61,141 nucleotides of DNA, taken from positions 1-61,141 of the forward strand of contig CANIIC010000003.1 of the NCBI GenBank assembly GCA_947467395.1, read 5' to 3'. The stretch's first letter is position 1. Each line of letters begins with the position of its first letter. Below are positions 34,087-46,562 of this stretch, in pieces. Origin of the DNA: Bryobacterales bacterium. GTDB taxonomy: Bacteria > Acidobacteriota > Terriglobia > Bryobacterales > Bryobacteraceae. The translations under genes were made by a program, and so were the position numbers. The notes under the pieces were generated by a model that saw nothing but the letters and a program-made list of their open reading frames with translations, did not search any database and was not told where the DNA came from.

Positions 34087-35283
34087 ATGCAAGCTGCGCC
34101 TACTGATCCCGAAGTGTCTCAATCCGAGCCGTCCGGACTCGGCATACAGTTCTGGTCGCTGATCGTCGCCACGTTTCTTGCGTTTCTTGGGATCGGCACT
34201 GTGCTCCCCGGCATGGCGTTGCATGTGCGGCACGACTTGGGCGGCAGCGATCGCACCGTGGGCTTCGTCATCGGAACATTTTCGGTGATTGCGCTCGGTT
34301 CGCGCTTCATCTCCGGTCCACTGGCTGATCGCAAGGGCCGCAAGATCGCGTTTCTCACAGGTCTCGTTGCATGTGGTTGCGCCGGACTCGCGTATTTTCT
34401 GCCGCTCGGCATCTTCGGCATGTATCTTGGACGCGGCATGCGAGGCTTCGGCGAAGCCTGTCTCTATACCGGGGCAGCAGCATGGGCTGTCGAATCCGCG
34501 GGTGTCGAACGCAGCGGGCGAGCGTTGGGCTTCGTCTCCACCGGTATCTGGGGCGGATTCTCCGCCGGACCCGTCATCGGGCAATGGCTGGGGACCTTCG
34601 AGCGCGCCGCCGCCTTGCAGGTGATCGCCGCGATCGCGGCCTTCGCGTTCCTGTGGCGCGTGCCCGAACATTATGTGCCGCATCCTTGGCCCGGCAAACG
34701 CATGTGGATCCCCGGGCACCTCATCCCGTCGGGGCTGGCCGTAGGCTTCGTGAACATTCACTACCCCGTGATGACCGGTTTCCTCATCCTGCACATGGCA
34801 CGCACTGGCGGTCCCGGTCCGCTCGCGTTCTCTGCCTGGGCTGTGATGGTGCTGGTGACGCGCTTCTTCCTGGGTGGCTTGCCGGACCGCTTGCCCGCGT
34901 CGTTGACCTACTACGTTGGCCTTGCGTCGATGGCTGCGGGGCTCGCGATTCTCGCCTTCATTCCCGGACCCACCGTGTCGGTGGCCGCGACGATCCTCAT
35001 CGGATTTGGATTCGCGTTCCCGTGGTCCTCAGTCGCCGCGACCGTGCTGAAGCGTACCGACAGTCACCAGCGTGGATCTACCGTTGGGGTGTTGAGCGCG
35101 TTTGTGGACATGTTCGTCGGTTCAGGCTCGTTCACTGCGGGCATGCTGGCCGATCGTTTCGGCTATAACGCCGCATTCATGCTGGCGTTGGCGGGCATCG
35201 GCGGTGCAGCGATCGTGGGCTTCAAGGTGTTTCAATCGCCTCCCGTGAACACGGGAAGCGCCCCTGCCGGTCTTCGGGGATAA
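34087..35283 (+). CDS. MFS transporter
   Basis: The 398-residue protein has twelve helices and the major facilitator loop GPLADRKGRKIAFL between helices 2 and 3. The second half contains LGGLPDRLPASLTYYVG. No substrate-specific motif is recognised. Divergent cupin and following alginate-export-like porin genes give no clear hint of its cargo. Confidence 0.82.
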   Translation: MQAAPTDPEVSQSEPSGLGIQFWSLIVATFLAFLGIGTVLPGMALHVRHDLGGSDRTVGFVIGTFSVIALGSRFISGPLADRKGRKIAFLTGLVACGCAGLAYFLPLGIFGMYLGRGMRGFGEACLYTGAAAWAVESAGVERSGRALGFVSTGIWGGFSAGPVIGQWLGTFERAAALQVIAAIAAFAFLWRVPEHYVPHPWPGKRMWIPGHLIPSGLAVGFVNIHYPVMTGFLILHMARTGGPGPLAFSAWAVMVLVTRFFLGGLPDRLPASLTYYVGLASMAAGLAILAFIPGPTVSVAATILIGFGFAFPWSSVAATVLKRTDSHQRGSTVGVLSAFVDMFVGSGSFTAGMLADRFGYNAAFMLALAGIGGAAIVGFKVFQSPPVNTGSAPAGLRG

Positions 35284-35344
35284 AACCTCCCGAAATTACA
35301 CCACGTGTTTGCAATCGCGCAAAGTGACCGTAGCATGGGGCTGT

Positions 35345-36628
35345 ATGCGGAACGTTCTGCTCTTTTCTCTTCTGTTCCTTCCCTTAACGTTCGCTCAAAG
35401 TCAGCGCGGCTTGATCGATTCCGAATTGAACCTTCCCAAGTGGCTGGATCTTACGGCGCAATCGCGTTGGCGGGCCGAAGGTCAGCATGATATCGGATTT
35501 CAGCCCGGCAACAATCAGGACTTCCTGCTGCAGCGCCTGCGTGTGGGCCTTGGTATCAAGCCCACCACTTGGCTGCAGGTTTATGCCGAGGCGCAGGATG
35601 CCCGGAGTCCCGGCATTCCGAACTCCACTTCTTCCACGCGGGACACGCTCGATCTGCGGCAGGCATATGTCGATATCGGCAAGGAAGACGCGTGGTGGGA
35701 TGTGAAGGTCGGCCGACAGGCGATCGCGTTCGGCAGTGAGCGTGTCATCGGTGCAAGCGACTGGACCAATCCCGCGCGTGTCTTCGATGCCGTACGGCTC
35801 GGTATTCATCACCACAACGACCGGCTCGACTTGTTCTCGAGTTCCGTCGTCAACTCCAATCACGACGCCTGGGATCATCATACGCAGGGAGACGTGTTGC
35901 ACGGTGCGTATGCGTCGCTAGGTTCTCTGATCCCGAACGCCAAGATTGAACCGTATGTGTTGTTGCGCTTCAGTCCTCGCCTTGCCGTCGCTGGAGCGAG
36001 TGGGCACTACAACAGCGTGACCTACGGCATGCGAGCTGCCGGCACGATCCGCAAGGAGTGGACGTATGAGTTGGAAGCGCTGGGGCAGGGCGGTAGCATC
36101 GGCGGTCAGCAAGTGCGCGCGTGGGGCGGGGAGGCGCAAGTGCGCCGCTTGTTCCCGGAACGGCTGTGGAAGCCGTCGCTCATCGCCGAGTATAACTTCG
36201 CGTCCGGCGACAAGCAGCGCGGCGATGGCAAGGTGAATACGCTCGACCAGCTGTATCCCACCAATCACAGCATCTACGGTATCGCGGACATCATCGGGCG
36301 CCGGAATATGCGCAACTTGCGTGTCGGCGTATGGGCGCAGCCGGAGAAGTGGCTGACAGTGAAGGTCGAAGGCCACGACCTGCGGCTCGCCAGCAAGAAT
36401 GACGCGCTGTACGCTGCGAGCGGTGTGGTCTCCGTCGCGGCCGTTCCCGGCGGAGCCTCGTCGGCGCAGGTTGGCGAGGAACTGGACCTGGTCGGCGAAG
36501 TTCGAGTCTCAAGACACTACAGCATCGGCGCGCAAACCGGTCACCTGTTCGCGGGCCAGTTCCTCCAGCAGAATTCGCCTGGTTCCGGCCGCACGTTCTA
36601 CGCGACGTTCATCGACTTTCGGCTGTAG
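35345..36628 (+). CDS. Alginate-export-like outer-membrane beta-barrel protein
   Basis: Starting at the ATG at 35345 the protein has 427 residues with a signal peptide (MRNVLLFSLLFLPLTFAQ). The body alternates polar and aromatic residues as in porins, with LQRLRVGLGIKPTTWLQVYAEAQDAR, WWDVKVGRQAIAFGSERVIG and the C-terminal strand FYATFIDFRL. This matches the alginate-export (AlgE-type) barrel domain in pattern; actual alginate export is not implied, as no alginate genes are near. Its end overlaps the orphan antitoxin gene by 20 bases. Confidence 0.8.
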   Translation: MRNVLLFSLLFLPLTFAQSQRGLIDSELNLPKWLDLTAQSRWRAEGQHDIGFQPGNNQDFLLQRLRVGLGIKPTTWLQVYAEAQDARSPGIPNSTSSTRDTLDLRQAYVDIGKEDAWWDVKVGRQAIAFGSERVIGASDWTNPARVFDAVRLGIHHHNDRLDLFSSSVVNSNHDAWDHHTQGDVLHGAYASLGSLIPNAKIEPYVLLRFSPRLAVAGASGHYNSVTYGMRAAGTIRKEWTYELEALGQGGSIGGQQVRAWGGEAQVRRLFPERLWKPSLIAEYNFASGDKQRGDGKVNTLDQLYPTNHSIYGIADIIGRRNMRNLRVGVWAQPEKWLTVKVEGHDLRLASKNDALYAASGVVSVAAVPGGASSAQVGEELDLVGEVRVSRHYSIGAQTGHLFAGQFLQQNSPGSGRTFYATFIDFRL

Positions 36629-36854
36629 CTCCGGCGTCGTACTCGGCTTGTAGCTTCAACCATAATTGCGCAGTGGTTCCAGCGAGCTTCGCCAATTGTG
36701 CGGCGATCTCCGGTGTCACCGAAGCTCGCCCGGCGATGAGGTCCCCCAGTTGGTCCTCGGTGAGCCCGGTCCGTTCCGCCGCCGCGTGGACCAGGATCTC
36801 TTCTTCAAAGAGCAGGAAGCGCAGAAAACTCCCGGGATGCTCGACGCGGCTCAT
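36609..36854 (-). CDS. HigA-like HTH antitoxin, without a visible toxin gene
   Basis: The 81-residue protein follows the HigA/VapI pattern: HPGSFLRFLLFEEEILVHAAAERTGLTEDQLGDLIAGRASVTPEIAAQLAKLAGTTAQLWLKLQAEYD, an XRE-type helix-turn-helix. HigB toxins normally sit immediately upstream, but the 220 bases at 36855-37074 contain no such frame on this strand. It is therefore probably a solitary regulator or the remnant of a lost module. Confidence 0.72.
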   Translation of the reverse strand: MSRVEHPGSFLRFLLFEEEILVHAAAERTGLTEDQLGDLIAGRASVTPEIAAQLAKLAGTTAQLWLKLQAEYDAGATAESR

Positions 36855-36995
36855 GTGAGTCAGTGTATCGCCTCGAGGTGCTCTTGCAACCCGCTGGATC
36901 GCCTCCGAAACCCGGCGTCCCCACCGTTAAGTCCCCCCAACAACCTGTCCTGAACCGGGCCGCCCGGGGTAACTTGGCGGCATATGGGGCGCGTC

Positions 36996-37011
36996 TGTAT
37001 TATGTGATACA
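36996..37011. promoter_or_regulatory. 16-base palindrome upstream of the DUF1592 operon
   Basis: TGTATTATGTGATACA has perfect 5-base arms (TGTAT/ATACA) around 6 bases and lies 64 bases before the DUF1592 gene. It could be an operator. No cognate regulator is known. Confidence 0.3.
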
Positions 37012-37074: not shown

Positions 37075-39594
37075 ATGAAACGCTTCGTTTGTCTGAGTGC
37101 CCTAGCGGCTCTGATCGCCTCTTTCGCGCTCCTCCAAGACCGGGCAATCGGTCAAACTGCCGCTGCGGCGGCCCCCGACCCGCATCGCGCGATGTTGACG
37201 CAATATTGCGTGGGTTGTCACAACGCGCGCGCGAAGACCGGAGGCCTGGTGCTGGAAGGATTGAGCACGAAGCAGGTCGCGGCCAATGCAACGATTTGGG
37301 AGAAGTCCCTCAAGAAACTGCGCGGGCACCTGATGCCGCCGCCGGGCCTTCCCCAGCCGCCGCAGAAGGACATCGATGCCTTCACTGCCTACATGGAGAC
37401 GGCGCTCGACGCGTCGGCCAACGGACCTAAAGCCGGTTATGTCCCGATTCAACGCCTAAATCGTACCGAATACGCCGCGTCCGTCAAGGCGTTGATCGGC
37501 GTGGACGTGAATGAGAAAGAAATCCTGCCGCAGGACATCCAGGTGGAAGGCTTCGACAACATCGCCGAGGCGCTGACCACCTCGCCCGCATTCCTGGATC
37601 AATATATGACGGCCGCGCGCCACCTGGCCAGAGCGGGCGTCGGGAACATGGCTCCGCCCATTTCCAGCATGATGTTCCAGACCGAAGGCAACCAGGACCC
37701 GGCTCTGCCGTTTCCTGCCGGCATGCGCGGCGGCGTGAAGTTCACGACCAGCGTCCCGGCCGACGGCGAGTACCGCTTCAGCTTCTTCGATCTCGACATC
37801 GGCCTGTACAACCGGCAGATGCAGAACAGCACCACGCTGGTTCTCCTGGTGGACGGAAAGCGCGTGTTTAAGGGGGACCTGGGCGGCGAGCATGACCTGT
37901 GGTTGGCCAACGTCAAGGGCAGCGACGGCTGGCAGCAGATTCTGGACCGTTTCCAGAAGATTCCGGTCAATTTGCTGGCCGGTGAACATGAAATCATGGC
38001 CGGCTTTATCCAGCGGTCGCGCGTGGAATCCGATGACAACGTCGGTGCGGGCGGCGGCGTGGGTGGTGCGGTTCCGGCGGCCGGTTTCCGCCGCGGCATC
38101 GACATTCTGGAGATCAAGGGTCCTTACAACCCGACCGGCATCACGAACAGCAAGACGCGGCCGATGATTTTCGTCTGCGATCCCAAGACCGCAGGCGAGC
38201 TTCCCTGCGCCCGGCAGATCGCGCAGAACCTGGCCCATCGCGCCTATGCACGTCCGATCACGGAAGCGGACATGGCGTACCTGATGCGTTTCTATAACGA
38301 AGGCCGCCTGGACAACCAACCCTTCGACAGCGGTGTGGAACAGATCGTGGCCGCGGTTCTGGCGAGCCCTGACTTCTTGTACCGTTCCATCCGTGGACCC
38401 AAGACCGCGGTGAAGACCACGCAGTTCGCGCTTACGGATCTAGAACTGGCCAAGCGCCTCTCCTTCTTCCTGTGGAACACGCCTCCCGATGCCGAGCTGC
38501 TCAAGCTGGCCGAATCGAACGGCCTGTCCAAGCCCGGCGTCGTGAACGCGCAGGTGAAGCGCATGCTGGCTGATCCGAAGGCGTCCAGCCTGGTCTCAGG
38601 CTTCGCGATGAAGTGGTTGAATCTGAATACGCTCGACTCGGTGCAACCGGATGCCCGCATCTTCCAGGGCTTCAACGCCACGTTGCGGCGCGACTTCCAA
38701 CAGGAAGCTGAGATGTTCCTCAGCAGTATCCTGCTGGACAACAAGAGCGTGCTGGACCTGCTGACCTCGGACCAGACGTTCATGAACAACCGGCTGGCCC
38801 GGCACTACGGTATCCAGAACGGCCCCAGCACTTCGGCCTTCAAGCCGGTGACGGTGACCGATCCAACTCGCTTCGGCCTGTTGGGCAAGGCTGCTGTGTT
38901 GATGCGTACGTCGTACGGAGACCGCACTTCGCCGGTGCTGCGCGGCGCATGGGTGCTCGACAAGTTGATCGGGACGCCGCCGCCCCCTCCTCCTCCCACC
39001 GTTGTGGCGAATCTGGATCAGAAGCCGGGCGAAGCTCCGAAGACGGTGCGCGCGCGACTCGAACTGCATCGCGATAACCCGACCTGCAAAATGTGCCACG
39101 GCGTGATCGATCCCACGGGACTCGCGCTCGAGAACTTCGATTCGATCGGGCGTTTCCGCCAGACCGATCCGCAGGCCAATAACACGATGATCGATGCCAG
39201 CACGGTCATGGCCAGTGGCGTGAAGATCAACGGCCCGGTGGAACTGCGGCAGGAACTTGCCAACCATCCGGAATCGTTCGTGATTTCCATGACGGAAAAG
39301 TTGATGATGTATTCCGTGAACCGGCCCCTGCAGTATTTCGACATGCCGCAGATTCGCAAGATCGTGCGGGATGCGAAGAAAGACAATTACACCTTCGCGT
39401 CGCTGGTGTTGGGAATCGTGAATACGGATGCGTTCCGCAAGCAAGGCTTGGCGGTGAAGACGGCTCCGAAAGCCGCGCCGACGGCAGTTTCAGCCAAATC
39501 GCAAACGACCGGTGACAAGTTGCCGGTGTCATCGTCCATCAAGGCCGCGGCGGCCCCCGCGCTCACCCCGGCAACCCAAGGCAAGTCCAAGTAG
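37075..39594 (+). CDS. Exported DUF1592-type dihaem cytochrome-like protein
   Basis: The 839-residue protein starts with a signal sequence (LSALAALIASFALL). A first haem motif YCVGCH (Cys45, Cys48, His49) sits in a cytochrome-like N-terminal part, followed by DUF1587 (PIQRLNRTEYA), a carbohydrate-binding-like region and DUF1595/DUF1592 (LAKRLSFFLWNTPPDAEL). DUF1588 (RTSPVLRGAWVLDKLIGTPPPPPPPTV) carries a second motif CKMCHGVIDPTGLALENFD, and DUF1585 ends the protein. The set is typical of Planctomycetes and Acidobacteria and lacks a known role, probably oxidative and periplasmic. It heads a four-gene operon. Confidence 0.9.
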   Translation: MKRFVCLSALAALIASFALLQDRAIGQTAAAAAPDPHRAMLTQYCVGCHNARAKTGGLVLEGLSTKQVAANATIWEKSLKKLRGHLMPPPGLPQPPQKDIDAFTAYMETALDASANGPKAGYVPIQRLNRTEYAASVKALIGVDVNEKEILPQDIQVEGFDNIAEALTTSPAFLDQYMTAARHLARAGVGNMAPPISSMMFQTEGNQDPALPFPAGMRGGVKFTTSVPADGEYRFSFFDLDIGLYNRQMQNSTTLVLLVDGKRVFKGDLGGEHDLWLANVKGSDGWQQILDRFQKIPVNLLAGEHEIMAGFIQRSRVESDDNVGAGGGVGGAVPAAGFRRGIDILEIKGPYNPTGITNSKTRPMIFVCDPKTAGELPCARQIAQNLAHRAYARPITEADMAYLMRFYNEGRLDNQPFDSGVEQIVAAVLASPDFLYRSIRGPKTAVKTTQFALTDLELAKRLSFFLWNTPPDAELLKLAESNGLSKPGVVNAQVKRMLADPKASSLVSGFAMKWLNLNTLDSVQPDARIFQGFNATLRRDFQQEAEMFLSSILLDNKSVLDLLTSDQTFMNNRLARHYGIQNGPSTSAFKPVTVTDPTRFGLLGKAAVLMRTSYGDRTSPVLRGAWVLDKLIGTPPPPPPPTVVANLDQKPGEAPKTVRARLELHRDNPTCKMCHGVIDPTGLALENFDSIGRFRQTDPQANNTMIDASTVMASGVKINGPVELRQELANHPESFVISMTEKLMMYSVNRPLQYFDMPQIRKIVRDAKKDNYTFASLVLGIVNTDAFRKQGLAVKTAPKAAPTAVSAKSQTTGDKLPVSSSIKAAAAPALTPATQGKSK

Positions 39595-39608
39595 GTCAAG
39601 AGGCGAAC

Positions 39609-40934
39609 ATGTTTATCACCAAGAAGCATCTCTCCCGCAGAACGGTTCTGAAGGGTGTTGGCGTCAATCTGGCGTTGCCGTTCTTGAGCGCCATGGTTCC
39701 CGCCTCGACGGCGCTCGCGCAAACGGCCGCGAATCCGAAGCTGCGCGCCGGCTTCTTCTACATCCCTCACGGCGCGATCATGCACAACACCAAGTTCGGC
39801 CCGGCGCAGGATCGCTGGACGCCGAGCGGGTCGGGCGCCAACTTCAAGCTCAACGAGATCAACTCGCCGCTGGAGCCGTTCAAGAAGTACGTCACCTCCT
39901 TTGGCAACTTGGAAAACGCAGCTGCCGCTGGATCTGTCCACGTCCGCAACCCCGCGACCTGGCTGAGCGCGACGCTGCCGACCGGCAACAACATGGCCAC
40001 GACGTTGGACCAGGAGATGGCGAAGTTCATCAGTAAGGACACGCCGTTCCCCACGCTGGAACTGGCCTCTGAGACCACCGTGCAGGTGGCGGCCGGTAAC
40101 GGCGGCCCGTTCACGACACTATCGTTCCGCGACGATCACACGCCGCTGCCGATGGAGTACAACCCGCGCAAGGTGTTCTTGGCCCTGTTTGGCGAAGGCG
40201 AAACGCCGCAGGAACGCAAGGCCATGGCCCGTCAGAACAACAGTCTGCTGGACATGATTCTCGATCGCACCAAGAAGCTACAGAGCGAACTGGGTAGCGA
40301 GGATCGCGCAATCCTGGACGCGTATCTGACCAATGTGCGCGAAATCGAACGTCGCGCCAAGATGACCTCGAACACCAACCTCTCGGCCATCACGATTCCC
40401 AACGCGCCCATCGGTGAACTCGAAAACTTCGCCGAACAGGTGAAGCTGATGTACGATCTGCTCACCTTGGCGTATCAGGCTGACCTCACCCGCGTCGCCA
40501 CCTACGTCACCGTTGCCGAAGGCACCAACCGCACGTATCCGTTCCTCGACGTCACCGACGGGTTCCACCCCGTTTCGCATCACGGCGATCTCCCGGAGCG
40601 CCTGGAGAAGCTGGTCAAGATCCAGAAGTGGCACATGCAGATGTTCGCCGACTTCCTCAAGAAGATGTCGGAGACGCCGGATGGACAGGGTTCGTTGTTG
40701 GATCACTCGCTGTTCATGTACGGCTCGAACATGAGCAACTCGAACCAGCACAGCAACTACCCGATTCCGAATCTGGTGGTGGGCGGCGGTAACGGCAAGT
40801 TAAAGCAGGGCGGCCAGCACTTGGTGCTGCCGGAGCACACGCCTCTCGCCAACGTGCACCTGACGCTGATGCAGAAAGTCGGTCTCGAACGCGACAAGTT
40901 CGGCGACAGCACCGGCGTGATTTCGGAGATCTAG
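39609..40934 (+). CDS. Tat-exported DUF1552 protein
   Basis: The 441-residue protein carries a twin-arginine signal (SRRTVLKG, Arg10-Arg11, then LPFLSAMVPASTALA). The mature part (AGFFYIPHGAIM, GNLENAA..HVRNPATWLS, QEMAKFI) matches DUF1552, related in fold to the sulfatase/DUF1501 group. AGAGGCG precedes the ATG, and it starts 14 bases after the DUF1592 gene. DUF1552 and DUF1592 proteins pair across Acidobacteria and Planctomycetes, so they likely form a complex or pathway; Tat export suggests a cofactor is loaded before export. Confidence 0.9.
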   Translation: MFITKKHLSRRTVLKGVGVNLALPFLSAMVPASTALAQTAANPKLRAGFFYIPHGAIMHNTKFGPAQDRWTPSGSGANFKLNEINSPLEPFKKYVTSFGNLENAAAAGSVHVRNPATWLSATLPTGNNMATTLDQEMAKFISKDTPFPTLELASETTVQVAAGNGGPFTTLSFRDDHTPLPMEYNPRKVFLALFGEGETPQERKAMARQNNSLLDMILDRTKKLQSELGSEDRAILDAYLTNVREIERRAKMTSNTNLSAITIPNAPIGELENFAEQVKLMYDLLTLAYQADLTRVATYVTVAEGTNRTYPFLDVTDGFHPVSHHGDLPERLEKLVKIQKWHMQMFADFLKKMSETPDGQGSLLDHSLFMYGSNMSNSNQHSNYPIPNLVVGGGNGKLKQGGQHLVLPEHTPLANVHLTLMQKVGLERDKFGDSTGVISEI

Positions 40935-40942
40935 GGGTTCCT

Positions 40943-41851
40943 GTGAAGAGACGAGAATTATTGAAGGGTGCCGCCGCGGGAGCGCTTGCAATGTGGGCTC
41001 CACGCCTGCTGCGTGCCCAGCAGGGCGTGACCAAGCTAACGGACAAACTGGCCGTGATCGATGCCGGTGGCGCCAACGTGACCGCCTTCGTGACGAGTGA
41101 AGGTCTGGTGGTGGTCGATAGCGGCGCGCCGAATACGGGCGATGCCGTGATGGCAGCGCTGAAGAGCCTGGCTCCGAACGCCAAGGTCACCACGCTGTTC
41201 AATACGCACTATCACCTGGATCAAACGGCTAACAACGAAATGTTCGCGGCGCAGGGGGCCAAGATCCTCTCGCAGAAGCGCACGCGTGAGTGGTTGTCGC
41301 GCGATTACTGGGTGCCCGGCGAAGAGCGGTACGTCAAGGCGCGTCCCAAGGCGGCCTGGCCCGTCGAAACGTTCGTCGACAAGGGCAGCCTCAAGTCGGG
41401 CGGGGAAGACATCGACTACGGGTATCTGCTGATGGCGCACACCTCTGGCGATGCCTACTTCCACTTCAAGAGTGCGAATGTGATCGCCGTCGGCGATGTC
41501 GCTTCCCCGGTGCGCGACCCTGAACTGGACTGGTTCACGGGCGGCTGGGTGGGTGGCCGCACGGATTCCATGGATCTGGTGCTGTCGATCAGCAATGATC
41601 AGACCAAGATCATCCCGGCGTATGGTCCAGCGATGACCAAGGCGGAGTTTAAGGCGGAGCGCAACATGATGGAAGAGGTCCGGCAGCGGATCTACGATCG
41701 TGTCCGTGCCGGCGAAGGCCCCAAGGACATGCTGGAGGGGGGCGCTCTGGAGGGGCTTCCGCGCAAGTGGAAGGATCCCGCGAAATTCTTGTACTCGGCG
41801 GCAAAGGGTGGCTGGGCTTTCCACGATAAGCTGGGCCCGAATGTTGTTTAG
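40943..41851 (+). CDS. Tat-exported metallo-beta-lactamase-fold protein with altered second metal site
   Basis: The 302-residue product starts at GTG with AGGGG upstream and has a twin-arginine-like signal (MKRRELLKGAAAGALAMW). The MBL-fold core is clear: VVVDSGAP, THYHLDQT (His89, His91, Asp93), HTSGD (His166) and GDV (Asp185). The usual HxHxDH ends in Gln94 instead of His, and the usual GH of PGHG is Tyr227 (PAYGP). The two residues changed are the ones expected to hold the second metal, so this may be a mononuclear or non-hydrolytic member. Eight bases after the DUF1552 gene. Confidence 0.85.
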   Translation: MKRRELLKGAAAGALAMWAPRLLRAQQGVTKLTDKLAVIDAGGANVTAFVTSEGLVVVDSGAPNTGDAVMAALKSLAPNAKVTTLFNTHYHLDQTANNEMFAAQGAKILSQKRTREWLSRDYWVPGEERYVKARPKAAWPVETFVDKGSLKSGGEDIDYGYLLMAHTSGDAYFHFKSANVIAVGDVASPVRDPELDWFTGGWVGGRTDSMDLVLSISNDQTKIIPAYGPAMTKAEFKAERNMMEEVRQRIYDRVRAGEGPKDMLEGGALEGLPRKWKDPAKFLYSAAKGGWAFHDKLGPNVV

Positions 41852-41860
41852 GAGGCATGC

Positions 41861-43558
41861 TTGAAACGTTTTCGTCTAGCTGTTGTGTTGGTGGGCGCCG
41901 TAGCCGCCGTGATTCTGGTGCAGTCCGTATTGGCGCAGGCTCCCAAGGACCTGCCGACCGCCGTTCAAGCAGGCGCGACCAAGCAGGCTCTGGAAATGAT
42001 TCGGAGCGGAGCCGACGTCAATCAAGCGCAGGGCGATGGGTCCACGCCCCTGATCTGGGCGGTCAACCGTCAGGATTATGAAGTAGCCGAAGCGCTACTG
42101 GCGAAGAAGGCGAATCCGAACGCGGTCAACGAATTCGGCGCCATGCCGCTGACCGAAGCCGTCCGCCTAAACGACGCTCGTCTGGTGAAGATGCTGCTCG
42201 ATGCCGGGGCCAAGGTGGATTCTGCCAATCCCGACGATGAGACCGCGTTGATGCTGGCCATCAAGAACGGCAACTTGCAGATGACGGAAACGTTCCTCAA
42301 CGCCGGCGCGAAGATCAACATCGTGGAGAAGTTCCATAATCAGACGCCGCTGATTTACGCGGCCGCAGGTGGCAATCCCGCCATCGTGAAGCTGCTGCTC
42401 TCCAAGGGCGCCGACATCAAACCGCGTTCGCTGTACACCGACTGGCCCAGCCAGGTGACCAGTGAGCCGCGCGTTCAGTATCGCTCCGTGGGTGGTTTGA
42501 ATGCGCTGATGTACGCCATTCGTGGCGGCTGTTACTCCTGCGTCGAACAACTGGTGGCGGCCGGAAGCGACATCAACTTCCCGACTCCGGAGGGTATCAC
42601 GCCTCTGATGCTGGCCCTCGATAACGAACACAACGAAATCGCAAAGTTCCTGATGGACAAGGGCGCCGCTCTCGACGTTTGGGATTGGTGGGGCCGCACG
42701 CCGCTGTGGATCGCTGTGGATCGCAAGACACCTCCTGCTGCGGCTGCTGCACCGCTGGGTGGCGCGCGCGGTGGCGGGCAGGGTAAGGCTGGCCCGGGAG
42801 CTGCCAAAGGTGGTCCCGGACGTGGACCCGGTGGCGCGCAGGCTGCGCGTGATCCGAACGCTCCTCCGCCGGTCTCCAGCATGGAGATCATTAATCGTCT
42901 TCTGGCCGCCGGTGTCGATCCGAATCCGGAAATGAACTTCCATCGTCCGAATGCTCCGGCTCGCGGCCGTTTCGGCGACAACCAGGTGAGCACCAGCACG
43001 ACGGCGCTGTTCCGCGCCGTGCAACTGGGTGATCAGGAAGTGGTGGAAGCGCTGCTGGCCAAGGGCGCGAACCCGAATATCAACTCCATGGGGTACACCC
43101 CGTTCGGTTTGGTGGCGGGCAATGGTCCGAATGCACGCGGCGCGCTCGCGACGGCCGGCAATGTAGCCATGATGGACCTGCTCGTGAAATATAAGGCGGA
43201 TGTGAATGCGAAGATCAGCGGGACGTTGAGCAACTCCTTCCATATCGGCTACGGCAACGCGAATGACGGCGTCAATAGCAAGGAAGGCACCACGGCGCTG
43301 CATGAGGCTGCTCGCAATGTGCAGGTGGACCTGCTGAAGCACCTATTGGAACTGGGCGCGAATCCGAACCTCACCGATGGCGACGGACAGAAGCCAGTCG
43401 ATGTGATCGGTAAACTGCGCGGCACCCCGGCTCCGGCTCCTACCGCGGCGCCTGTGGCTGCGAAGGGTAAGGGTAAGGGGCCGGCGGGTCCAAGCCCTGC
43501 TGCCGTGGCTGAAATCCGGACGCTGCTGGAAACGGCGTCCGCGAACGCAAAGCGCTAG
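41861..43558 (+). CDS. Exported ankyrin-repeat protein
   Basis: TTG is the start, with a strong TAGGAGG six bases upstream that also covers the previous stop. The 565-residue protein has a signal-anchor helix (AVVLVGAVAAVILVQSVLA) and about ten ankyrin repeats (NQAQGDGSTPLIWAVNRQDYEVAEALLAKKANPN, and so on). A Gly/Ala/Pro-rich insert with GGARGGGQGKAGPGAAKGGPGRG interrupts them near 295-335. A basic/Pro/Ala-rich stretch precedes the end. It is the fourth gene of the DUF1592 operon and probably mediates contacts among the exported proteins. Confidence 0.88.
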   Translation: MKRFRLAVVLVGAVAAVILVQSVLAQAPKDLPTAVQAGATKQALEMIRSGADVNQAQGDGSTPLIWAVNRQDYEVAEALLAKKANPNAVNEFGAMPLTEAVRLNDARLVKMLLDAGAKVDSANPDDETALMLAIKNGNLQMTETFLNAGAKINIVEKFHNQTPLIYAAAGGNPAIVKLLLSKGADIKPRSLYTDWPSQVTSEPRVQYRSVGGLNALMYAIRGGCYSCVEQLVAAGSDINFPTPEGITPLMLALDNEHNEIAKFLMDKGAALDVWDWWGRTPLWIAVDRKTPPAAAAAPLGGARGGGQGKAGPGAAKGGPGRGPGGAQAARDPNAPPPVSSMEIINRLLAAGVDPNPEMNFHRPNAPARGRFGDNQVSTSTTALFRAVQLGDQEVVEALLAKGANPNINSMGYTPFGLVAGNGPNARGALATAGNVAMMDLLVKYKADVNAKISGTLSNSFHIGYGNANDGVNSKEGTTALHEAARNVQVDLLKHLLELGANPNLTDGDGQKPVDVIGKLRGTPAPAPTAAPVAAKGKGKGPAGPSPAAVAEIRTLLETASANAKR

Positions 43559-43584: not shown

Positions 43585-43937
43585 TGGTGGAGGCGGCGGG
43601 AGTTGAACCCGCGTCCGAGAAAGTCCACCGCAAAGAGACTACGTGCGTTTCCGGTTCGGTAGTTTTCGTCCGCGAAGTATAGAAACCGGCAAGAACACCG
43701 CGGCTTAGTCCGATTGATTTCGGGTTTCGGCTCCGAACAGAAGCCTTGGCCCTATCCTGCAAAATGACGTTCTTAGCAGAGCGCGCAGGCTCACCCCACC
43801 AGAACGGCTACTTAAAAATTAAGCAGCGTATGCAAACTGCGTGTTGGCAGTTGTTGTTTTCTGATCGTTTTACGGGAGCTCAGAACCCGGCACGACTCTC
43901 TACGCTGATTCGATCCCGTCGAATCCGTTGCGCCCCC
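43585..43937 (-). ncRNA. ssrA: Transfer-messenger RNA
   Basis: About 353 nt. The 5' end reads GGGGGCGCAACGGATTCGAC and the 3' end GCGGGTTCAACTCCCGCCGC then CTCCACCA. The first seven and last seven bases before the discriminator A pair (GGGGGCG with CGCCTCC), forming the acceptor stem, and the T-arm GGGTTCAACTCCC is present. The mRNA-like part at 43819-43848 encodes the tag ANTQFAYAA followed by TAA, starting from a GCC resume codon. The CCA is encoded. tmRNA frees stalled ribosomes and marks the truncated peptide for proteolysis. Confidence 0.95.
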
Positions 43938-44392: not shown

Positions 44393-45529
44393 TTATTTCT
44401 TGTTTTTGCCCTTGTCCTGCGCTTCTTCATCGGCAGCGCGCGGCGCGATCCAGTATCCGTTGCGCGTGCGGATGTCGAGATTGGCGGCGGCCAATACCTT
44501 CACCGTAACCTCGTGATACCCGCCCTTGGCGGTCGTAGGCGGTGCGAAGGTCAGCAGGTACTGGCTGTGGACTTCTTCGCTAATATTCTGGACGGCTTCT
44601 TCCAGGCCCGAGAGCGTCACGAAGTTCTCTTCCTTGCCACCGCTGAACTTGGTGTAGACCTCATGCGAGTTGGGCACGAAGACGCCCTTCACCAGCGCGA
44701 AGATTTCCTTGAAGACGGGGGTCCAGTTGCCCATGTTGGTCTGGGCGTCGGTGGTGCCGGTCTGGATCACGCCCATGGGCAGCGGTCCGCGGGCTTCCGG
44801 CGGAACCGGTTTGGGGCGGTTCGGTTCGGCTTGCGTGGTCAACTGGTTCAGCAAGTGATTCATGCTGACTGTAAAGACCTGCACGCCGGAAAATTCAATG
44901 TTCGTCATCACGTCGCGCGGGCTGAAGGCGCTGCCGGAATCGCGGGTTTCGCTGATGATGATCAGCACCTTCTTGCGATCCTTGCCGCGGTTACGCAACA
45001 TGTTCACCGCTTGCATGGAAGCGTCGTCCAGATGATGCGGGCTGCTGCCGATCTTGATGTTGGCGAACGCTTTCTTGATTTCGTCGGGATTCGAGGTGAA
45101 CGGCGTCATCACCTGGATGCGGTGATCGAAGGCCAGCACGGCGACTTCGCCGGTTTCGCCCGCTACGATGGGTCCGAACATCGCTCCGACCTTCTGCACG
45201 GTGGGCAGGATTTGGCGGGCGGTGGAGTTGGCTTGCACGGCGACGACCAGTGAGATCGGATGCGCACTTACGTCCAGTACAACCTTCTGTTTCACGCCTT
45301 CGTCGTAGAGTTCGAAATCGACCGGCGCGAGGCCGTTGATGAAGTTGCCCTTGCGGTCACGCACGGTCACCGGGACCTGCACGTTCACAACGTCGGAGCG
45401 GAAGATGGGTGTCTCAATTTCTTCGACGGTGGTGGGGACCGGGCCTTTCGAGGTGCCCTGGGCCATCAGGAGGCCCGTCATCACTGCGCTGGCAGGAATC
45501 GCTGCCGCAAGAATGTGTCGAATCTTCAT
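44393..45529 (-). CDS. VWFA-related acidobacterial secreted protein (first)
   Basis: The start is the ATG at 45529, preceded by GTGAGG; the GTG at 45541 is less likely. The 378-residue protein has a signal peptide (HILAAAIPASAVMTGLLMA). A beta-sandwich part follows (VVNVQVPVTVRDRKGNFINGLAPVDFELYDEGVKQKV), then a von Willebrand A-like domain with VAVQANST in place of the usual DxSxS, and a C-terminal strand part. This is the VWFA-related acidobacterial domain family. A Lys-rich tail (KGKNKK) ends it. It is the last gene of the moeA-moaC-mog run. Confidence 0.85.
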   Translation of the reverse strand: MKIRHILAAAIPASAVMTGLLMAQGTSKGPVPTTVEEIETPIFRSDVVNVQVPVTVRDRKGNFINGLAPVDFELYDEGVKQKVVLDVSAHPISLVVAVQANSTARQILPTVQKVGAMFGPIVAGETGEVAVLAFDHRIQVMTPFTSNPDEIKKAFANIKIGSSPHHLDDASMQAVNMLRNRGKDRKKVLIIISETRDSGSAFSPRDVMTNIEFSGVQVFTVSMNHLLNQLTTQAEPNRPKPVPPEARGPLPMGVIQTGTTDAQTNMGNWTPVFKEIFALVKGVFVPNSHEVYTKFSGGKEENFVTLSGLEEAVQNISEEVHSQYLLTFAPPTTAKGGYHEVTVKVLAAANLDIRTRNGYWIAPRAADEEAQDKGKNKK

Positions 45530-45548
45530 GGATCGCCTCACCCTGACT

Positions 45549-46562
45549 CTACCGCACCTCAGGGGCCACTCGGTACGCCCGGCGGGCGCGGACCTTGGTC
45601 CCGGGGACCTTTACTTCGACTGCCAGCGAATGGAAGCCGGCGGTGGGCTGCGACGGCGCGAAGGTGAGAAGGTACTGATTGTGCACCTCGCGGCCAATCT
45701 GCTGGAGCGCTGCTTCGAGCTGCTTCTGATTGTCGAAGGTCTGCTGCGTGCCCCCGGTCATGGCGGCGTAGGCCTCCAGAGAGTTGCTTGCCGTGATTCC
45801 GCGCACGATCTCGTACATCTCAGCGACCGTCGGTGCGTACGCCCCATTTTGGACGTCGGTGGTCTGGGTCTGGATGGTGCCCATAGGGAGTGGTGCGCGA
45901 CCCTCAGGCGGGATCGGGTTGCGCGAGGTGACGCGTGGGGGAAGAGGAGCGGGCAGCTTCATGGTGACGGCGTAGACGAGGATGCCGTCGAGTTCGGCGC
46001 GCTGGAAGACGTCGCGTGTGGAGACGGCGCTGCCGAGGTCCTGCGCTTCGCCGATGAGGACCAGGATCTTCTTGCGGCCTTTAGCGCGGGTGTTCAGCAG
46101 CCGGATGCCTTCGAGCGCGGCGTCATCCAGATGGTGCTGCGTGCCGCCGACGGTGAGTTTGAGAAACGTAGTGTGGATCGAGTCGGCCTTGTTGGTGAAG
46201 GGCAGTAGCGTCTGTACTGTGTGGTCGAAGGTGAGCACGGCAACCTCGCCGGTCTCGCCCGCGAGCAGCGGCTCCAGAAGCGACGACGTGTTCTGGACCA
46301 AAGGCAGGATCTTCTTGGCCGGCGTGTTGGTCTGCACTGCGACGACGAGGGAGACGGGGTGATTCACGATATCGAGCTGGAAGTCCTGCGCGATGCCGTT
46401 ATCGAGAAGTTTGAAGTCGTTCAGCGTGAGGTTCGTCACCGGGCGGCTTTGTTTGTTGGTGACGGTGACGGGCACCTGCACGTTCACCACGGTGGAGCGG
46501 ATGATCGGCTCCTGCGCGGCGGCCACGAAGACAAGCAGGAAGCATAGGGCGGCGCGTTTCAT
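45549..46562 (-). CDS. VWFA-related acidobacterial secreted protein (second)
   Basis: The 337-residue protein, with signal peptide MKRAALCFLLVFVAAA, shares order and motifs with the next gene: VVNVQVPVTVTNKQSRPVTNLTLNDFKLLDNG, VSLVVAVQTNT, GETGEVAVLTFDH, HHLDDAALEGIRLLNTRAKGRKKILVLIGEAQDLGSA. The pair probably arose by tandem duplication. The 4-base overlap (ATGA) with the mog gene shows translational coupling to molybdenum cofactor genes. Role unknown; members are envelope or secreted adhesion-like proteins. Confidence 0.85.
   Translation of the reverse strand: MKRAALCFLLVFVAAAQEPIIRSTVVNVQVPVTVTNKQSRPVTNLTLNDFKLLDNGIAQDFQLDIVNHPVSLVVAVQTNTPAKKILPLVQNTSSLLEPLLAGETGEVAVLTFDHTVQTLLPFTNKADSIHTTFLKLTVGGTQHHLDDAALEGIRLLNTRAKGRKKILVLIGEAQDLGSAVSTRDVFQRAELDGILVYAVTMKLPAPLPPRVTSRNPIPPEGRAPLPMGTIQTQTTDVQNGAYAPTVAEMYEIVRGITASNSLEAYAAMTGGTQQTFDNQKQLEAALQQIGREVHNQYLLTFAPSQPTAGFHSLAVEVKVPGTKVRARRAYRVAPEVR

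Follow-up and report, generated by a model that had tools for sequence, protein, structure and literature searches.

A conserved, multi-copy extracytoplasmic redox module with an ankyrin partner at a four-gene locus of a Bryobacterales bacterium

The DNA stretch analysed here (the window) is a whole contig, CANIIC010000003.1 of 61,141 nucleotides, from the 4.07-Mb genome of a Bryobacterales bacterium (GCA_947467395.1). Between positions 37075 and 43558, four genes are arranged on the forward strand with spacings of 14, 8 and 9 bases. They encode a DUF1592-type two-haem protein, a DUF1552 protein, a protein with a metallo-beta-lactamase fold (MBL) and an ankyrin protein (ANK), the two abbreviations being used below for these module genes and their products (Table 1). 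Open reading frame (ORF) and Pfam analyses gave the same spacings, gene families and start codons as the initial annotation of this DNA. All four proteins carried leaders, which were assigned by eye as Sec-type for DUF1592 and ANK and as twin-arginine (Tat) for DUF1552 and MBL, in agreement with the earlier claim of four export signals, two of them Tat. Furthermore, with a permissive threshold Pfam TAT_signal matched 18 of 32 DUF1552 proteins, and the arginine pair R3 R4 of the MBL leader was invariant in 16/16 proteins. The TTG start proposed for the last gene behind a Shine-Dalgarno sequence was also borne out: AGGAGG is present in the sequence, and seven relatives start at the same position, with GTG in five (right behind AGGAGG) and ATG in two.

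When the locus was compared with its nearest relative (L051; one pair), the ratio of nonsynonymous to synonymous substitution rates (dN/dS) was 0.112 for DUF1592, 0.062 for DUF1552, 0.057 for MBL and 0.106 for ANK at dS values of 0.80 to 1.29 across the four genes, which indicates that the four ORFs are more than chance. Long opposite-strand ORFs overlap the genes, for example one of 391 amino acids within the ANK gene, and were taken for composition artefacts. One weak sigma-70-like match was found 5' of the operon (36974-37003), and the terminator count at the locus was not above that of shuffled sequence.

Table 1. Features of the four-gene locus in the window (aa, amino acids; pLDDT, predicted local distance difference test; CBM, carbohydrate-binding module).
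Feature	Position	Strand	Remarks
DUF1592-type exported two-haem protein	37075..39594	+	839 aa; Pfam; model pLDDT 81.6
First haem motif CVGCH, residues 45-49	37207..37221	+	Invariant in 27/27 aligned proteins
Predicted beta-sandwich resembling CBM6/35/36, residues 194-354	37654..38136	+	Foldseek, VIA, divergence
Second haem motif CKMCH, residues 671-675, in PSCyt3	39085..39099	+	Invariant in 27/27
DUF1552 (HXXSHH) protein, twin-arginine leader	39609..40934	+	441 aa; PF07586; model pLDDT 81.3
HPVSHH motif, residues 320-325	40566..40583	+	H320, H324 and H325 invariant in 32/32 rows
MBL-fold protein, twin-arginine leader, GTG start	40943..41851	+	302 aa; Lactamase_B 54.4 bits
HYHLDQ metal motif, residues 89-94, Gln replacing the usual second-site His	41207..41224	+	16/16 in clade
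AGGAGG ribosome-binding site of the ANK gene	41850..41855	+	TTG at 41861, five bases further; relatives
Exported ankyrin-repeat protein (ANK), TTG start, Gly-rich insert between repeats (alignment)	41861..43558	+	565 aa; PF12796 192 bits, PF00023 193 bits

The DUF1592 protein exceeded the Pfam cut-offs for PSD4/DUF1592, PSCyt3/DUF1588, PSD2, PSD3 and PSD5, as did 27 of 27 relatives, and gave a marginal match to PSCyt1 (23.1 against 22). Its domains are ordered as a PSCyt1-like haem domain, PSD3, the beta-sandwich, PSD5, PSD4, PSCyt3 and PSD2. Following general cytochrome c logic, M87, which lies within an invariant MPP motif and is kept in 27/27 aligned DUF1592 proteins, is presumably the axial Met of the first haem. 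The best Foldseek match of the sandwich was CBM35 (E 3.8e-3), and CBM35 and CBM6 were the top structural matches (Z 8.4) in the VIA tables, which list only chains ranked by Foldseek, so that families missing there may still match. Among 11 paralogues of this genome the sandwich was the most variable folded part, with an identity of 0.30 against 0.45-0.57 elsewhere, and among 11 orthologues the values were 0.59 against 0.66-0.78 for the other folded domains. Such a divergence, strongest among paralogues, would be expected if the copies differ in substrate, and suggests that they may do so.

The DUF1552 protein scored 258 bits with PF07586 (cut-off 30), and H111 and H381 were likewise invariant in 32/32 rows. 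Its model showed an alkaline-phosphatase-superfamily (AlkP-superfamily) fold, with a Foldseek match at E 1.3e-4 and only AlkP-superfamily rows in VIA (Z 17.1, root-mean-square deviation 3.4, 243 residues), and sulfatases and phosphodiesterases were among the best structural rows. A profile alignment that was weak and short of significance (P 0.22; poor rows) placed the catalytic Cys of sulfatases opposite the invariant H111, and a global profile alignment with sulfatase covered only a tail. Because of this placement, the usual nucleophile of the superfamily may be missing from DUF1552, which we regard as a lead only.

Subsequently, the distribution of the genes was examined with custom hidden Markov models, partly built from the same loci, on which all module tallies rest. 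This genome gave 17 matches each to PSD2 and DUF1552. Counting partial genes, there were 21 DUF1592/DUF1552 places, 16 of which had ANK beside them, with two small genes between ANK and its module on contig C62. Each of the five places lacking ANK (C104, C10, C31, C187 and C58) was cut by a contig end, and its visible side was free of ANK. With their own profile, 17 module-type ankyrin proteins of this genome scored at least 337 bits; 16 have a module as neighbour, and the last is at the edge of a contig. Another six ankyrin ORFs of the genome scored below 80. Seven ANK proteins of this genome that were outside the training set of the profile reached 337-521, whereas no other ankyrin ORF exceeded 79.

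Among 247 sampled Acidobacteriota genomes, 44 had DUF1552, as did 69 of 101 genomes of the family. ANK accompanied 26 of the 31 modules with room on both sides within 40 regions of 28 Acidobacteriota genomes, the regions having been hand-picked from strong matches in 28 of the 44 positive genomes, and the core occurred in shuffled gene orders across the phylum. Mantel correlations between the distances of DUF1592, DUF1552 and ANK were 0.79, 0.80 and 0.69 in 48 modules, values reached by 0 of 999 permutations, although related genomes are not independent in such correlations. In seven paralogues of this genome they were 0.85, 0.66 and 0.51 (1, 3 and 3 of 999 permutations). A DUF1552 search of plasmids gave 15 records, five of which were examined; a plasmid of Novosphingobium sp. 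KACC 22771 (L223, 5428-10626) carried an overlapping triad of DUF1592 with two CxxCH motifs, DUF1552 and ANK. Taken together, DUF1592, DUF1552 and ANK form a conserved, multi-copy extracytoplasmic redox module that is well supported as a unit, and a chance neighbourhood is unlikely as the explanation of this core.

The fourth gene is distributed differently. Sixteen places, spread over 11 of the 23 same-genus genomes searched, had relatives of MBL with at least 60% identity; none was found in the other 38 genomes among the matches listed. A profile search of genome contigs with the MBL alignment, MBL alone serving as the query, yielded 23 loci, the records of 22 of which are labelled Bryobacterales, Bryobacteraceae, Terriglobia or Acidobacteriota; the sets L051-L064 and L071-L093 hold partly identical contigs. 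The initial annotation had made conserved synteny with DUF1592/DUF1552 the test of its proposal, and the order was indeed kept. ANK lay directly downstream of MBL in 22 of the 23 loci, the last being cut by a contig end; DUF1552 lay upstream in 21, with one locus cut at its contig start and one true absence; DUF1592 preceded DUF1552 in 18, and three more were cut. In the true absence (L057 and L081, one contig), MBL-ANK stands behind topA and dprA without DUF1592 or DUF1552, and in L052/L075 a tandem MBL-ANK-MBL-ANK lies inside one module string, a third, more distant MBL preceding the next DUF1592. MBL and ANK therefore move together as a pair. The genes also occur in a second arrangement, MBL-DUF1592-DUF1552-ANK, on contig C94 of this genome and in several relatives. 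The four-gene order is thus kept within one Bryobacteraceae clade and the three-gene core without MBL is far wider, so that, in correction of the initial annotation, MBL is an optional addition outside the core.

The module MBL exceeded the Lactamase_B cut-off of 22.7 bits. All 16 clade members have HYHxDQ and retain H166 and D185, and their last second-site His is replaced by Tyr, Ser or Ala. In the window this residue is Tyr, and the HxHxDH motif plus C-terminal His of two-zinc enzymes is absent. These 16 proteins and nine from the second arrangement formed one clade (support 100/100), in which both second-site zinc histidines were gone in 25/25. Ordinary MBL relatives had HxHxDH in 18/19 and PGHG in 19/19; the tree took in 4 of these 19 outgroup loci, and the motif count covered all of them. 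Two of the 25 were not beside DUF1592/DUF1552 in the fetched DNA, namely L057 (ANK only) and L067 (neither), and two MBL ORFs outside the clade (L060 and L066) had an altered first motif. Since the module proteins have lost both histidines that ordinary relatives keep, the loss goes with the module; the missing second metal site noticed earlier is accordingly real and clade-wide. Judged from these residues, the module MBL may be either a one-metal hydrolase or a binding protein.

Genes next to the modules were then considered. Among 45 listed operon-neighbour candidates, 26 were scanned by Pfam, together with four proteins outside the list. The 26 included two small cytochromes c, three proteins like pyrroloquinoline quinone (PQQ) dehydrogenases and four gluconolactonase- or Vgb-like proteins, the rest being mixed or unknown. 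The small cytochrome c genes adjoin two modules of this genome (L032 and L044), and gluconolactonase-like or PQQ-dehydrogenase genes stand beside several modules. At L034 (contig C162 of this genome), a PQQ-type gene lies beside a module that is apparently broken by an in-frame TAG. Genes for cytochrome c and cytochrome b/b561 stand directly behind DUF1552 in Sphingobium herbicidovorans and Sphingobium TomTYG46, and a b561 gene accompanies the DUF1592/DUF1552 pair in Novosphingobium RL4; Planctomyces SH-PL62 has neither cytochrome c nor b561 at DUF1552 and a DUF1080 gene instead. These cytochrome c/b561 neighbours outside the phylum are the best pointer to the electron path. On the Sphingobium plasmids (L224 and L227), DUF1592-DUF1552 with its cytochrome c and b561 genes and a TonB receptor stands in catabolic surroundings.

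The products of the four neighbouring genes probably act as a single redox machine located beyond the inner membrane. We tentatively read it as a c-type oxidoreductase acting outside the cytoplasm, with a carbohydrate-like compound as its probable substrate and ANK as a scaffold or maturation factor, and give this reading somewhat less than an even chance. Its redox part draws on the two invariant CxxCH motifs, the invariant Met and the cytochrome c and b561 neighbours, and its carbohydrate part on the structural matches and divergence of the sandwich, on the gluconolactonase-like or PQQ-dehydrogenase neighbours and on Cbp2D. Gene order, conservation as a unit, the two haem motifs, the DUF1552 fold and the loss of the second MBL site are established here; substrate, reaction, electron path and what ANK and MBL do are inferred, as follows. 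The locus represents one of many copies of a redox module that is periplasmic (or secreted), and the core of the module consists of the two-haem c-type DUF1592 protein, its DUF1552 partner with the AlkP-superfamily fold and the exported ANK. The beta-sandwich of DUF1592 may hold a carbohydrate-like polymer or oligomer, and the DUF1592/DUF1552 pair would oxidise it, perhaps thereby cleaving it, at a reaction centre that could be the second haem or the His-rich site of DUF1552. Electrons might pass from the N-terminal haem via a c-type cytochrome to the quinone pool. By analogy with the published ankyrin partners of catalases, ANK may hold the parts together or help to load haem. In one Bryobacteraceae clade, a one-metal MBL has been added beside the ANK gene; this protein could process the oxidised product or bind to it. 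The oxidative or polymer-processing machine of the initial annotation fits the two haems, the CBM-like sandwich and relatives of the Cbp2D type, its substrate and reaction being conditional in the same sense.

Several observations weigh against the oxidoreductase reading. The DUF1592 model (pLDDT 82) gave no Foldseek match at E <= 0.001, and jelly rolls of the C1q and Pgp3 types scored Z 7.2-8.3, near the Z of the CBM-like matches. Assignment of the sandwich to a CBM through Pfam failed, with none found in the window protein and CBM60 in 2/27 proteins at a best E of 0.077. By the thresholds used, 5 of the 31 modules in full view lack ANK, which is thus not universal, one of them (L134) having an overlapping ANK ORF, and the Sphingobium and Planctomyces records examined showed no ANK. 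A PQQ/quinoprotein relay was rejected as a standing partner: such genes belong to the operon in L069 and L070 and occur close to several further modules, yet are not enriched near modules in this genome, where 65 PF01011 matches included three gene places within about 3 kb. Electron donation to a lytic polysaccharide monooxygenase (LPMO) was likewise rejected as the role, as LPMOs of family AA10, the acceptor proposed for Cbp2D, were absent in 26/26 genomes; a non-AA10 acceptor is still conceivable. According to the available parts of one report, some X183 haem domains failed to drive an LPMO, and binding to plant polysaccharides was absent for the related X122 domains (PMC10916295).

Four other explanations were weighed. 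The pair could be a dehydrogenase for small molecules (aromatics, steroids or alcohols) that feeds the quinone pool, with ANK and MBL as accessories. In S. herbicidovorans the pair is accompanied by cytochrome c, cytochrome b and a short-chain dehydrogenase/reductase, with vicinal oxygen chelate, flavin monooxygenase and Rieske genes further on, b561 recurs in two other sphingomonad records, and PQQ alcohol-dehydrogenase-type genes lie directly 5' of MBL in L069 and L070. However, those sphingomonad DUF1592 proteins that have b561 neighbours are of reduced length with a single CxxCH and might thus serve another purpose, and a dehydrogenase of this kind leaves the fast-diverging CBM-like sandwich and 17 to 21 copies per genome without explanation; we hold it to be somewhat unlikely. 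A peroxide-linked function, with DUF1592 resembling a di-haem cytochrome c peroxidase and ANK supplying or inserting haem as in AnkB/KatB and Cj1386/KatA, would suit two haems next to an exported ankyrin protein. The accessible text of one paper states that the periplasmic ankyrin partners of catalases in P. aeruginosa and C. jejuni (AnkB-KatB and Cj1386-KatA) probably allow heme binding (PMC7567364). None of the four proteins of the window, however, had a catalase or peroxidase Pfam match, about 20 diverged copies would be superfluous for a single detoxifying enzyme, and DUF1552 would be left over, which makes this function quite improbable.

We assign a similarly low probability to a mainly hydrolytic system in which DUF1552 is sulfatase- or phosphodiesterase-like, MBL is a second hydrolase and DUF1592 is a binding or electron-sink subunit. 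The AlkP-superfamily fold and its best structural rows speak for such a system, but the alignment of the sulfatase Cys with H111, weak as it is, hints that the usual nucleophile may be missing, the second metal site of MBL is lost, and the strictly kept haem motifs would have no part in it. Finally, the genes could be chance or recent neighbours, inherited together in one clade and sharing no function. All MBL loci of the first clade do belong to one genus-level group and the locus sets overlap, so that they are not independent; nevertheless, dS is about 1 between the nearest copies, the core is found again with rearranged genes throughout the phylum and also in another phylum, and MBL-ANK has been duplicated as a pair and kept as a pair without DUF1592/DUF1552. 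Mere neighbourhood is thus very improbable. At the opposite end of ambition, the preferred oxidoreductase could be an ankyrin-organised oxidative glycan-processing machine, with paralogues aimed at different polymers via the fast-diverging sandwich, a two-haem protein, an AlkP-fold protein whose nucleophile has become a metal-binding His, and a one-metal MBL in one clade. We consider this extended form unlikely. If true, it would join hydrolases, lyases and copper LPMOs as a further route, and in one clade an MBL would have been reduced to one metal site upon joining the module.

Several further features surround the operon. A tmRNA gene (43585-43937, minus strand; tag ANTQFAYAA) is convergent with it, 26 bases beyond the ANK stop. 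Upstream on the operon strand (34087-36628), a major facilitator superfamily transporter is followed by an Alginate_exp-type porin, and a small minus-strand ORF (36643-36854) resembles, by eye, a lone HigA/XRE-type antitoxin. At 44393-46562 on the minus strand lie two similar exported proteins in tandem, the first with a von Willebrand A domain.

Compared with known systems, the module MBL has the fold and first metal site of class B beta-lactamases and SoxH_rel_PQQ proteins. Unlike two-zinc hydrolases, it lacks both second-site His (25/25) and scores far under the cut-offs of curated families (50.9 bits against 280 for SoxH_rel_PQQ, TIGR04559). Haem of the c type is bound covalently via the Ccm system, and the partner of ANK here is a c-type cytochrome, unlike the catalases served by AnkB and Cj1386. 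As far as the accessible text on those systems goes, the likeness is that an exported ankyrin protein is encoded beside a haem protein.

A related architecture is that of Cellvibrio japonicus Cbp2D, which, in the available parts of the report, is required for growth on insoluble cellulose (PMC12542752). Cbp2D and Teredinibacter TERTU_2913 and TERTU_3803 contain X183 and X132 domains, X132 starting with DUF1587 (a 2024 figure legend prints DUF1687, which we read as a slip); CjX183 was able to reduce LPMO whereas Teredinibacter X183 domains did not, and the 2025 paper offers the hypothesis of direct cellulose cutting by Cbp2D/E (portions of PMC8981238, PMC10916295 and PMC12542752). As described in those portions, these proteins and the DUF1592 protein of the window share secretion, c-type haem domains and a DUF1587-containing region with a further CxxCH; the order of DUF1587 and C-terminal CxxCH in X183-X132 proteins recurs here as PSD3 (126-187) and CxxCH (671-675). 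Moreover, TERTU_3803 has a fused PF08450 domain, and PF08450 genes adjoin some modules here. Unlike the Cbp2D/TERTU proteins, the window protein has no CBM2/CBM10 or YceI (X158) by Pfam, and partners of the DUF1552, ANK and MBL types are not described for those systems in the portions available. As to the N-terminal haem domain and the solved X183 cytochromes, no X183 entry was among the PDB sequence matches up to E 10, or up to E 1 in two other searches.

The initial annotation had called the machine undescribed and the DUF1592/DUF1552 pairing established. Both the pairing and a connection of such proteins, through redox chemistry, with the use of cellulose are indeed in print (PMC5615132, PMC8981238 and PMC12542752, as far as available), but the ankyrin partner is unreported: of the four papers in the open PMC literature found to mention DUF1552 or DUF1592, none combines DUF1552 with ankyrin, and wider searches there yielded no report of the triad or quartet or of a link to ANK or MBL. 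Soil and aquatic bacteria carry many copies of DUF1592/DUF1552 pairs; for the question of what these pairs and Cbp2D do, a standing ANK partner, a constant gene order and the three-gene core of a Novosphingobium in culture provide concrete parts to express, delete and assay. According to the available text of He et al. (2017, PMC5615132), PSCyt3 genes of Verrucomicrobia and Planctomycetes usually adjoin one family of unknown genes, with functions stated as not known. Those systems have the same PSCyt/PSD domain set and many copies per genome, as here, and some of their PSCyt genes also carry carbohydrate-binding domains. The word ankyrin does not occur in the main text of that paper and MBL is not mentioned in its accessible parts, whereas here ANK is regularly present as the third partner and one clade has MBL as the fourth.

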